Below are positions 18,341 through 47,807 of a stretch of DNA of 58,863 nucleotides, in pieces. Under the pieces are notes generated by a model, which saw nothing but the letters and a program-made list of their open reading frames with translations, made no database searches and was not told the origin of the DNA. The position numbers were made by a program, and so were the translations under genes. The stretch is from Saprospiraceae bacterium (GTDB lineage Bacteria; Bacteroidota; Bacteroidia; Chitinophagales; Saprospiraceae). Location: contig JANQQI010000077.1 of NCBI GenBank assembly GCA_028285085.1, positions 1-58,863 of the forward strand, written 5' to 3'. Within the stretch, counting starts at the first letter, position 1. Each line of letters begins with the position of its first letter.

Positions 18341-19186
18341 TTAATACTGTCTTACTTTAATCAAAATACCATCTTCATCGAATTCATATTTAAAAGCGTT
18401 TTTCTGAAATACTTTTCTCTCTTTTTTTTCAAGCAAGAGTTTGTATCTACCAAAATTTATCTTTTGAAACTCGGATAAAAACATCTTTCTTCCATAATGA
18501 CAAACCAATAGCATGATGAAATCTACGTTTCCAAATTTCGATATATGCTGCTTTATATATTTATTATTAAATGCTTCTGGAGTAGATGCAAATGCATCTG
18601 CTTGGCTATTTATTTCATGGAAAATATTTTTATAATCGCCTTCCCAGTAATATTTAGCTTCTTCGGCATATCCAGCTATTATATCTGGATTGATTGATTT
18701 GATATATCTTGCCCATTTATTTAGATCATTATCATATTCAAAACTAGCTAAAACACCATTATTGAAAAATAACTTAACATCTATTTTTTCTGAATAGTAT
18801 ACTCCATTTTTATCCTTGCCATCAAAAGCTAATGTCCTGGCCAAATAATCAAGATCAAGAGATTTCTCTTTGATTCCTTTTAATAGTATGTCTTGTACTG
18901 TATAACTCGAATACTCATGATTGTAGTCAAAATCTTTCATTAAGCTGTTGACTTCTTTAATTGATAGAGAATGGACCTCTTTAAGAGTCATGACAGCAAT
19001 AACATTATCTGTAAATACCTCGAGTAAGATAACGTTTATATTATTACTTCTGTCAAAATCTATAAGGTAGGTGTGTAGCTTGATAGGTGAATATCCGATT
19101 GATTTCGCAGTACTATTTATTGAACCTGAATTAGTTTCATTAGCTAGTCTTGAAAAGGTTCTTCCTTTCTTTATGAAAGTTGCCAT
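18341..19186 (-). CDS. Orphan protein at the end of the TIR cluster
   Basis: 281 residues, soluble, no signal or TM. It begins 3 bp after the TIR-EAD11 gene, so the two are almost certainly translated together. The sequence is Asn/Lys/Tyr-rich with mixed alpha/beta character and two aromatic-rich parts (EEAKYYWEGDYKNIFHEINS near residue 180 and the basic end KYKLLLEKKERKVFQKN-like). No known motif was recognised. In TIR systems such a partner could be a sensor or regulator, but that is inference only. Confidence 0.7.
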   Translation of the reverse strand: MATFIKKGRTFSRLANETNSGSINSTAKSIGYSPIKLHTYLIDFDRSNNINVILLEVFTDNVIAVMTLKEVHSLSIKEVNSLMKDFDYNHEYSSYTVQDILLKGIKEKSLDLDYLARTLAFDGKDKNGVYYSEKIDVKLFFNNGVLASFEYDNDLNKWARYIKSINPDIIAGYAEEAKYYWEGDYKNIFHEINSQADAFASTPEAFNNKYIKQHISKFGNVDFIMLLVCHYGRKMFLSEFQKINFGRYKLLLEKKERKVFQKNAFKYEFDEDGILIKVRQY

Positions 19187-19189
19187 TTG

Positions 19190-19894
19190 TTACTTGTTCT
19201 CTAATAATTTAATGGTTTCTAAAATTGAAAATACTACTTTATTAGTACCCATTGCATAATCTTCTTGGGATATTAGGCCCAAGGTGTTATCATTTCTTAA
19301 TCGATTAAGACGAGATGATATTAAAGTCAGATTATCTAAATAATCAGTTTCATTTTCTTTTACATATTTTATCAATAATCTTAATGCTGTATCAGTCTTG
19401 CCGTTTCCTATTTCTTTTCTGATTTTATTGAAATTAGGATTTTCTTGTTTTTTAACCTCCTTGACAACGTTGATTTGCTTTTGTAGAAATTCAATTAGCT
19501 TATTCATTTCATTTTCATCATAAATCTTTATTGCTTGATAATCCGATAAGTTTATTGTACTGACTCTGATGTTAGGGAGTGGAACGTCTTCAATTAATGC
19601 TGGTATGAAATATATTGAATTAGGCGATTTTTGTTCAAGAGTGCTGAGAGCTATTTTAAGCTCTTTCTGAACATAACCATCTTTAGTTATACTATTTTTG
19701 GAAATGCAGGCAATAAAGAATCTGGATCTTTTAATGACTTGAATGATCTCATCATTCCATTTAATTCCAGGCATTAAATCTTCTTCGTCTAGCCAAGGGT
19801 TGAGTCCATTTTCTTTTAGCTTGTTATATAGTTTTCTGACAAAATATTTGTCCTCTGATGCGTGGGCTAGAAAAATAATGTCAGGAGATTTCAT
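19190..19894 (-). CDS. TIR domain protein with C-terminal effector-associated domain (EAD11-like)
   Basis: 234 residues. Residues ~4-135 form a TIR domain (DIIFLAHASEDKYFVRKLY, WLDEEDLMPG, FFIACISKNS), with the catalytic-type Glu78 in the VQKEL motif, as in NAD-cleaving bacterial TIRs. Residues ~155-234 (IRKEIGNGKTDTALRLLIKY ... ISSRLNRLRNDNTLGLISQE ... NKVVFSILETI) resemble effector-associated domain 11, a Bacteroidota adaptor domain thought to join effectors to sensors in conflict systems. Its ATG overlaps the stop of a small ORF (19891-20001). Confidence 0.85.
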   Translation of the reverse strand: MKSPDIIFLAHASEDKYFVRKLYNKLKENGLNPWLDEEDLMPGIKWNDEIIQVIKRSRFFIACISKNSITKDGYVQKELKIALSTLEQKSPNSIYFIPALIEDVPLPNIRVSTINLSDYQAIKIYDENEMNKLIEFLQKQINVVKEVKKQENPNFNKIRKEIGNGKTDTALRLLIKYVKENETDYLDNLTLISSRLNRLRNDNTLGLISQEDYAMGTNKVVFSILETIKLLENK

Positions 19895-20001
19895 AAGAAT
19901 TTTGTTCTTGTTGGTAATGAGTAGTAGTTGTTCATGATATATATAAATATTATAGCTGTAACTACAAATGCGCTGTAAAACGCAATTAGTTTAAATGATA
20001 C
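19891..20001 (-). CDS. Possible small single-TM ORF between cluster genes
   Basis: An open frame of 36 codons from a stop at 20002-20004 to a TGA at 19891-19893. The TGA overlaps the TIR-EAD11 ATG (ATGA). It encodes a hydrophobic run (FYSAFVVTAIIFIYIM) and a basic end (NNYYSLPTRTKFL). There is no standard start codon before the hydrophobic part; the only ATG (19935) comes after it. It may be part of the six-TM gene in another frame, or a chance AT-rich ORF. Confidence 0.2.
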   Translation of the reverse strand, partial: VSFKLIAFYSAFVVTAIIFIYIMNNYYSLPTRTKFL

Positions 20002-20611
20002 TTATGTTTTTTATCGGTCTATAAATTACTTTCCAATAATAAATGGAAATCAATAAGTAAGCTATAAGAATTTCAATAGTCCAGTTGATTCGATAAGTTT
20101 TTTCGGTAAAGCTTTGTGTTTTTTCAAAAAGACCTAGAAGGGATTCGTCGGGCATAAACCAAATTGAGACTGCTATTAGGCCAGCAAAGCCTAATCCAAT
20201 CACATAAGTCATTATTGATAAATTATGATCTAAACGCGAAATATTAATATAGCGTAAATATCTTAGATTTATTCCATCAATTTTAGACTCAAGACAGATT
20301 AATTTAGTAGAAATTCCTATTTGCCCTATTATCGAAATCATGATGACCGTTCCGATGAATATTAGGTGAGAAAACTGTTGTATCAATTGAGTAGATACGA
20401 TTGAGGAAATAGTAGCTGCCCACCATAAGAAATTGATTATGCTAAGATAACTTCTTTTATTTATTAGTAAAAGCCTGTTTGCAAGAAGAAAAACTACTCC
20501 AACTACTAATGGTGGAATCCAGAATTCTTCTCTCCAATCACCTGTCCTTATGTTTGCTTTTAATACGCCAAGAGCATTTAGAATAACTGATGTCAAAAAA
20601 AGCCAAATCAA
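19991..20611 (-). CDS. Six-TM protein, probably the C-terminal half of a TIR-TM fusion
   Basis: 206 residues if started at the TTG at 20609-20611. About six TM segments (around residues 1-15, 33-49, 60-78, 84-100, 128-150 and 178-197). The frame is open upstream as far as a TGA at 20678-20680 and holds no ATG or GTG there; it passes through the ten-T (plus strand) run at 20660-20669, where a -1 shift or one extra A joins it to the TIR gene. The upstream extension reads KFQILKQQISNKNHQWL, a normal-looking linker. So it is most likely translated as part of a ~365-residue TIR-TM protein. No family was recognised for the TM part. Confidence 0.6.
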   Translation of the reverse strand: MIWLFLTSVILNALGVLKANIRTGDWREEFWIPPLVVGVVFLLANRLLLINKRSYLSIINFLWWAATISSIVSTQLIQQFSHLIFIGTVIMISIIGQIGISTKLICLESKIDGINLRYLRYINISRLDHNLSIMTYVIGLGFAGLIAVSIWFMPDESLLGLFEKTQSFTEKTYRINWTIEILIAYLLISIYYWKVIYRPIKNISII

Positions 20612-20646
20612 TAACCATTGATGATTCTTGTTTGATATTTGTTGTT

Positions 20647-21087
20647 TTAAAATTTGGAATTTTTTTTTTCCTCCTCCTCATTTCTTATTCCAATTGTAGA
20701 TTCCAAACTTTTTTGGAGCTTTATTAAATATCCTTGCTTATATGTTTCAATATATTGAATGTTTTTCAGCTTTTCAGGTATAGGGCAATCATCAAATTTT
20801 ATTGGGATAATGAAAATTTTGTCTTCTGGATATTCGTACATTACTTCAAGTGCAGTTCTTAACTCTTTATGTGCATAAGACTTTGCATTTACCCAATTTG
20901 AAGATAGACAAACCATAACTATTAAAGCCTCCTCTATAGAATTTTTAATTTTTTGTTCCCAAATTTGACCTGGTAAGATATCGTCCTCGTCAAACCAAAC
21001 ACTATAGCCGAAATTTTCAAGTTCAGTTTTTATTTTTATTGCCTGATCTCGATCTTTCTTTGAGTGACATAGAAAAATATCTTTCAT
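20647..21087 (-). CDS. TIR domain protein (first gene of the cluster; probably fused to the next frame)
   Basis: 146 residues as read without frameshift. TIR signatures: DIFLCHSKKDRDQAIKIKTE, WFDEDDILPGQIWEQ, a hydrophobic strand ALIVMVCLSSNW and the catalytic-type Glu75 in YAHKEL. Ends in a Glu-rich stretch and ten A residues (EEEEKK, then NSKF and stop). The run is a slippery site of the A-AAA-AAN kind and the following frame encodes six TM helices without its own start. TIR domains of this type cleave NAD or make cyclic ADP-ribose signals in bacterial immunity. Confidence 0.85.
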   Translation of the reverse strand: MKDIFLCHSKKDRDQAIKIKTELENFGYSVWFDEDDILPGQIWEQKIKNSIEEALIVMVCLSSNWVNAKSYAHKELRTALEVMYEYPEDKIFIIPIKFDDCPIPEKLKNIQYIETYKQGYLIKLQKSLESTIGIRNEEEEKKNSKF

Positions 21088-28340: not shown

Positions 28341-28805
28341 TCTAAATATTCGGGTTTGAAAATGAATTCAAATTTAAATATTTAATTTGACTTTAGTCTT
28401 GAATGCACCTAGCATTTGGTGCTCACGATGTAATGGCACAAAGTGGCTATGAGTGTTTTGTACTTTATTGTAGCCAGTTGTGTATCCTTCGATATATCAG
28501 GACATCATTCAATAATATTTGCTGCCTTAAAGATAGTGATAGGTTCTTTGAAAGTGATATATCATAACTTCTGTTGAGATGAGAGAGCATAAGTTTATTT
28601 TAAAATTTATATGACCTCTCGAATACGATTTAACGGGAAGAAGTATTCAATCCACCCTTGCGGTGCTTTCCTTTCACGGGACAGTACTGAGCGGCAAGGG
28701 GAAAGGCATGAAAACGTGTCAGAAGTAGATAGAGGAGTTGAACGAAAGTGAACCGGTTGATGAAGTGTCGAAACTAAGTGGAAAAGTTAGGAAAACTGAT
28801 TCATA
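28341..28805. other. 465-bp spacer with hairpins and an intron-like stretch
   Basis: Contains a small hairpin GCACC/GGTGC (28405-28422) and the group II intron-like segment described separately. No reading frame of note. Confidence 0.4.
28630..28795 (+). ncRNA. Group II intron-like RNA fragment (domain I remnant?)
   Basis: The plus strand folds and reads like part of a group II intron domain I: outer stem CCCTTGC ... GCAAGGG around 28654-28700, hairpin GGCATG-AAAA-CGTGTC, then GTGAACCGGTTGATGAAGTG and TCGAAACTAAGTGGAAAAGT, phrases of the kind seen in subdomain ID of bacterial group II introns. No reverse transcriptase, domain V or 5' GUGYG was found, so at best it is a truncated remnant. This rests on pattern memory rather than a model search. 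Confidence 0.3.
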
Positions 28806-47402: not shown

Positions 47403-47807
47403 GATAATCTATTTTACTGTCTTTGTGTGAAGTCGGGGATAAGAAATGACTTTGTTAGGATTTTAATAAAAATGAGGCACTTTTTAAAGTTTTTGCTAGG
47501 GTTTATCCTGGGTAAGTATTGAAGTGTATTGTAAAGTGTTTTTTGTTAGTGCATTGTGAAATTAAATTTATTATATGTGAATAAGATGATTTGAATCTCA
47601 TTCTAAAACAGATGGAATCAGCATTTTAATTTCCCTGTTTTTTTTCATTGTATGGCAGGCTTTCCTGTCTGTATCTTCGACCTAACGAAGACCGCGAAAA
47701 AGTTGAGGTCTAGTTAATTTAAGCATCAACGCTAGTCCAAACGCTTTAAATAAAAGGAGGAAGCTGAAAATCCTAAAAGAGTAAGCATAACCCTAAAACT
47801 AATAATC
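47403..47807. other. 405-bp spacer upstream of the two plus-strand orphan genes
   Basis: AT-rich. Contains the small hairpin at 47654-47669 (GGCAGG, CTTT, CCTGTC). It should carry the promoters of both flanking units. Nothing else was recognised. Confidence 0.4.

Follow-up and report, generated by a model that had tools for sequence, protein, structure and literature searches.

Slippage on a run of A residues is known to make two proteins from one bacterial gene. In Citrobacter rodentium, slippage on eleven A residues (A11) in the gene for TssM1 is reported to give two products, both of which are required (PMC4256274). In Thermus thermophilus dnaX, polymerase slippage on A9 is described as yielding two products from one gene (PMC1088944, PMC5009743), the same economy that is proposed below for a TIR gene. 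Insertions are reported to predominate in A/T runs (PMC5574713), and in many bacteria selection against such runs is said to be evident from a length of nine (PMC1088944). Frame transitions have been surveyed on a genome scale by Antonov et al. 2013 (PMC3711429), in whose main text PspC does not appear. Our search of one literature collection returned nothing that joins transcriptional slippage with a TIR domain, or a PspC domain with frameshift and slippage; the same collection gave nothing on TIR-TM with TIR domain, transmembrane and defense, or on Saprospiraceae with slippage. Both A-run slippage and TIR proteins are known; their combination, and the set of junctions described here, were not found in the literature searched, which is no proof of their absence.

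The locus lies in the window, by which we mean the whole stretch of 58,863 nt that was analysed. The source genome is labelled G000, three genomes of the same genus are labelled G001-G003, and L-numbers denote single loci. In the window, a gene for a TIR domain ends in an A10 run, and a -1 frame encoding transmembrane (TM) segments continues from it. The features of the locus are:

20647..21087, minus strand: TIR-domain ORF, 146 aa (ORF translation; PF13676, E=1.9e-25)
20670..20679, minus strand: GAGGAGGAGG, Shine-Dalgarno-like, directly 5' of the A10 run (sequence)
20660..20669, minus strand: A10 slippery run with A_AAA_AAA in the TIR phase (sequence)
19991..20659, minus strand: -1 frame 3' of A10, 222 codons plus stop, about six TM segments (translation, hydropathy)
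20609..20611, minus strand: TTG, the earliest candidate for an independent start of the TM frame under a rival account
19190..19894, minus strand: next gene, TIR plus Effector-associated domain 11, 234 aa (PF13676, E=4.1e-25; PF19964, E=7.5e-17)
18341..19186, minus strand: 281-aa ORF, 3 nt past the TIR-EAD11 ORF and a possible operon member (no family match at E<=0.1)

An earlier note on this DNA had placed ten A residues at 20660-20669, and exactly ten T residues stand there on the plus strand, that is, A10 on the minus strand. The TIR gene reads GAG GAG GAG GAA AAA AAA AAT TCC AAA TTT TAA, as that note had it, and a -1 shift in the run leads into the next frame, giving FQILKQQISNKNHQWL; past the run this frame stays open for 222 codons and ends with a stop at 19993-19991. 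Since the TM frame is already open from 8 nt 5' of A10 and the TIR stop (TAA) does not begin until 10 nt 3' of it, the run lies in a short stretch that the two frames share. Both kinds of slippage that had been suggested fit this arrangement: the heptamer A_AAA_AAA stands in the TIR phase within A10, in keeping with ribosomal slippage on A-AAA-AAN, and a run of at least nine A, as polymerase slippage would use, sits where both frames are open. In the window, A9 has two matches, both within the A10 run, compared with 10.95 in shuffles.

We conclude that A10 is probably a real -1 recoding site. RNA polymerase would add one A in a fraction of transcripts, which would then encode a TIR-6TM fusion, and the remaining transcripts would encode TIR alone; a less likely step is a -1 slip of the ribosome on A_AAA_AAA. 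One gene would thus give rise to two products, a soluble TIR protein of 146 aa and a TIR-6TM fusion with its TIR domain in the cytosol, for which the -1 reading predicts about 365 residues, the size given earlier. That the fusion is made we infer from the sequence. The A10 site would be one of a set of -1 inter-domain junctions at A9-A11 across several genes of the genus.

The properties of the TM frame itself bear on whether it needs the run to be translated. Of the six helices claimed earlier, six segments are predicted at a looser threshold but five at the strict Kyte-Doolittle threshold; with six segments and N-in topology, the cytosolic loops carry 11 K/R residues and the remaining loops 6. 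The codon score of the frame is weak, at -0.10 bits per codon versus -1.69 and -0.65 in its other frames. The frame had also been described as having no start of its own, which holds for ATG and GTG but passes over TTG codons 48 and 63 nt past the run (20611, 20596). These TTG codons allow an account with two separate genes in one operon, in which translation of the TM protein begins at TTG 20611 or 20596 and the A-run is incidental. We regard this account as unlikely. TTG is a legal, though weaker, start, and TTG 20611, which is 35 nt past the TIR stop, would open an ORF of 206 aa; yet it is codon 17 of the TM frame and the first predicted helix starts at residue 15, and ATG and GTG are absent from the frame for 318 nt past the run. 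The 16 codons from the run to this TTG score alike in two of the three frames, which leaves room for separate genes, as does the lack of relatives in which conservation of the TIR-TM pair could be seen.

A census of A-runs in the four genomes speaks to the same question. Runs of at least ten A are rare in the source genome (14 in 7.47 Mb, from 17 overlapping matches). The sample comprised the A10 site, 13 other A>=10 sites of G000 and 34 A>=10 sites of G001-G003, together with the A9 runs of G000, of which 103 were counted and 100 classed. A start-less junction was taken to have an upstream ORF with ATG, a downstream frame of at least 100 codons and no ATG or GTG until 60 nt past the run; 80 codons were needed on either side for the in-frame class, and the count leaves out one G003 run that lies close to the end of a contig. 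Control windows were placed every 7 nt in the G000 loci, away from runs, and 108 of 85,796 (0.13%) pass the junction rules, 71 of these 108 being -1.

Start-less junctions make up 8 of the 47 A>=10 runs on the A strand; the TIR-TM site is among them, and all eight are -1. They are distributed as 3/14 in G000 (TIR-TM site included), 1/4 in G001, 2/19 in G002 and 2/10 in G003. Relative to control windows, whose A content was unmatched, A>=10 runs are enriched about 135-fold in such junctions. The probability of 8 or more of 47 is 1.9e-15 and that of 3 or more of 14 is 7e-7, figures in which orthologues and overlapping windows are not independent; the eight junctions represent five distinct genes, and orthologues make the counts non-independent as well. 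The uniform -1 direction is weak evidence (null share 66%, 0.12 for five genes). The enrichment of start-less junctions (8/47 versus 108/85,796 windows) argues against separate genes with an incidental run.

The strand on which the junctions lie is informative for another reading, that what is or was one plain TIR-TM ORF has had its run altered, either by a mistake in sequencing or assembly or by a genuine recent indel. None of the 47 A>=10 runs is a start-less junction on the T strand (A versus T, p=0.006), and such confinement to the A strand speaks against error or indel. In-frame runs number four on each strand, and among coding runs alone the ratio of junction to in-frame is 8:4 for the A strand and 0:4 for the T strand (p=0.08). 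On the A strand, the 100 classed A9 runs comprise 1 junction, 14 in frame, 2 overlaps with a start and 83 that are none of these. Two A9 loci, L125 and L149, were dropped as junctions because an ATG stands just after the run; L195 was also dropped, as ambiguous.

PspC, a polyketide-type synthase, RibF-GT2 and OmpA-DUF1573 are the genes whose parts meet at the other junctions. In PspC, PF04024 lies upstream of the junction and LiaI-LiaF-TM_PspC, Toast-rack and DUF2807 lie downstream (L017, L076-L079, L084, L085, L097). PspC has a match in 38 of 59 genomes, and 24 loci were examined, L094 and L095 being counted among them. Seven of the 24 carry the -1 split, each with A9 or A10: it falls at A10 in G000, G001, G002, G003, G032 and G013 and at A9 in G030 (a 25% identical match), so that all four genus genomes examined are included. 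In other PspC relatives the run is kept in frame. A run of at least nine A lies near the PspC junction in 18 of the 24 loci, including L077, with A10 at the junction. Among the PspC and RibF loci, the A9 of L099 is 17 nt off, the run of L095 is 136 nt from the expected place and L094 is without the upstream part.

In the polyketide-type synthase, a PP-binding part is followed by KR across the junction (L013, L220-L226). The -1 split occurs at A10 in G000 and G003 and at A9 in G018, G022 and G012, which makes five of the nine genomes that have a match. In G006 and G032 the two frames are likewise related by -1, at an in-phase A_AAA_AAG and without a long run; G023 is cut by its contig, and G013 differs. 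In G000 an ATG stands 44 nt past the run, which places this junction outside the 8/47; in G003 neither ATG nor GTG occurs for 239 nt. The OmpA-DUF1573 junction is -1 at A9 in G000 (L162) and at A11 in G002 (L275), the parts being 66% and 56% identical, and its second frame has no early ATG or GTG. RibF-GT2 has a match in 58 of 59 genomes; of its 24 loci (L196-L219), 9 carry a run of at least nine A close to the junction.

In G000 the RibF and GT2 parts are out of frame with each other at A10, but in 17 of the 24 loci they form a single open frame, so an indel or run error is possible in the source genome, and homopolymers are where such errors fall. The earlier note had named homopolymer error as the main alternative to slippage. 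It is a poor general account, since PspC and the synthase keep the run and the -1 relation across species: in four congeneric species the PspC split is a -1 junction at A10, and the synthase is split at A9 or A10 in five genomes. A real run of at least ten A would, moreover, be expected to slip anyway. The junction census and the recurring PspC and synthase junctions thus make recoding likelier than sequencing error or a pseudogene, and we consider error or indel in the TIR gene quite improbable. The constancy of the PspC run also bears on whether A10 is a contingency (phase-variable) tract, in which replication slippage would toggle cells between TIR alone and TIR-TM. Long A-tracts are reported to be able to mutate during replication (PMC1088944) and TIR genes would be plausible targets, but a run that stays A10 and -1 in four species is too constant for a switching tract, and phase variation seems very improbable indeed.

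The sister junctions (A9-A11, -1, start-less) in the same genome and genus lend indirect support to the proposal that the TIR and TM frames are joined by slippage. As to which machine slips, we lean towards the polymerase. All seven PspC splits and five of seven synthase splits have 9-10 A, above what a ribosomal heptamer needs; the prevalence of insertions in A/T runs (PMC5574713) and the TssM1 precedent (PMC4256274), as reported, point in the same direction. Within recoding, a minor share falls to dnaX-type -1 ribosomal frameshifting on A_AAA_AAA, aided by GAGGAGGAGG. The heptamer is in the TIR phase, and the two synthase splits without a long run, in which A_AAA_AAG replaces it, speak for the ribosome. 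The Shine-Dalgarno-like GAGGAGGAGG abuts the run, but ribosomes of Bacteroidia reportedly fail to recognise Shine-Dalgarno sequences (PMC9976891), and no RNA structure was found at the A10 site (z -0.11). We place the organism in Bacteroidota on the strength of its gene content and of matches to its GT2 protein in one collection (47% to Parabacteroides and Phocaeicola records); a placement in Saprospiraceae would be conjecture. Rfam at gathering thresholds gave no match at the site, and AGGAGG is absent from the 21 nt 5' of the run at 15 other junctions.

Relatives of the TM part were sought in several sets. Its own genome is the sole match in 395 phylum genomes and 398 family genomes (overlapping sets), and viral contigs, plasmids and phages gave none. 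In 59 related genomes, two weak matches beyond its own genome (E 0.008-0.009) were set aside; L010 is a 208-aa membrane-type ORF without an adjoining TIR ORF, and L011 lies within a 1325-codon frame. Because the TM part has no relatives in the sets searched, the A10 run at the TIR-TM site is not checkable by orthologues, and a homopolymer error is a possibility at this site in particular.

The TIR part has relatives at E<=1e-9 in 27 of 395 phylum and 11 of 396 order genomes, its own genome being counted in both, and these are 25-37% identical. Peptide patterns gave one match (34%) in genome contigs of close relatives; plasmids contributed 5 records (30-39% identical), and viral contigs and phages had no matches. 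The loci checked were 28 (phylum) and 12 (order) other than its own, two phylum matches being without a locus. At least three TM segments in the TIR frame were found in 0 of these 28 + 12, as far as each locus reaches; in other frames of the 40 loci, at least three TM segments occur in five (L037, L040, L041, L059, L070). A run of at least nine A at the TIR end is absent in all 40, including the five with a TM frame. In both L040 and L041 an ordinary ATG stands just 3' of the TIR stop, and in L038, L057 and L072 such runs lie about 1 kb or more beyond the TIR match. On the cyanobacterial plasmid NC_014503.1 (L293), a 146-aa solo TIR gene stands directly before a 395-aa TIR gene, an order that resembles that of the window, with no run or TM frame in between. 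This solo gene indicates that a 146-aa TIR can stand alone.

The TIR ORF matches Pfam TIR_2 (PF13676) with 90.1 bits against a curated cut-off of 28. Its Glu75 aligns with the Glu of YEL in AbTIR (chain 7uxr), which we take to be the NADase catalytic glutamate, and Glu75 is thus a putative catalytic residue. Matches to ThsB models of Thoeris reach E 4.4e-8 at best (PADLOC); among the neighbours scanned (18344-19186 and 19193-19894) there is no PADLOC match to ThsA. The best PADLOC match of the TIR ORF is a short-Argonaute TIR protein (E 1.6e-17, residues 3-131), an assignment that was rejected: it covers model positions 5-135 of 430, and the TM part matches no PADLOC model of this type (TIR + APAZ/PNTD). 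The source genome has 16 TIR_2 matches, 15 of them above the cut-off; two, at C130, are in ORFs whose N-terminal halves resemble pentapeptide repeats by eye. Elsewhere in the window, Rfam matches a group II intron, D1D4-2, at 28613-28723 (47 bits) and DUF805b RNA at 47754-47787 (45.1 bits).

We infer for the gene an immune-type TIR protein, partly membrane-tethered, that would serve as an enzyme or adaptor and act with TIR-EAD11. Membrane TIR, free TIR and the neighbouring TIR-EAD11 protein may perhaps form mixed complexes. If the fusion is made, slippage, and not a second gene, would govern the membrane attachment of this bacterial TIR protein.

The recurrence of A-run junctions in PspC, the synthase, OmpA-DUF1573 and RibF-GT2 suggests that, in this lineage, genes that seem broken or seem to be two neighbours are single genes with two products. 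It is conceivable, and we hold it tentatively, that the genus, and perhaps much of the family, uses genome-wide recoding, in which A9-A11 runs stand at domain boundaries and polymerase slippage sets the ratio of short to fused product; in the TIR gene it would set the membrane-tethered share. If true, the scheme would span envelope, polyketide-type, flavin/glycosyltransferase and immune-type genes. For the TIR gene it would mean dosage control of an immune-type effector, of which no description was found in the literature searched.

Several described systems resemble the locus in part. The PADLOC TIR-TM system is similar in name, a TIR plus membrane segments, but neither the TIR part nor the TM part matches its model at E<=0.1, and the neighbouring TIR-EAD11 protein matches it weakly (E 0.012). 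That neighbour (19190-19894) is itself one of the TIR-EAD11 proteins (PF19964), whereas the slippage gene has no EAD match. In TssM1 of the Citrobacter rodentium T6SS, as in the TIR gene, an A-run just before the stop of the shorter ORF is reported to lead to a short and a long protein (PMC4256274). Slippage in TssM1 restores a canonical membrane protein, whereas the TIR gene would gain a predicted 6-TM part. The Thermus thermophilus dnaX gene differs in the direction of the outcome: its long product is described as the unshifted one, whereas in the TIR gene the long product would be the shifted one.
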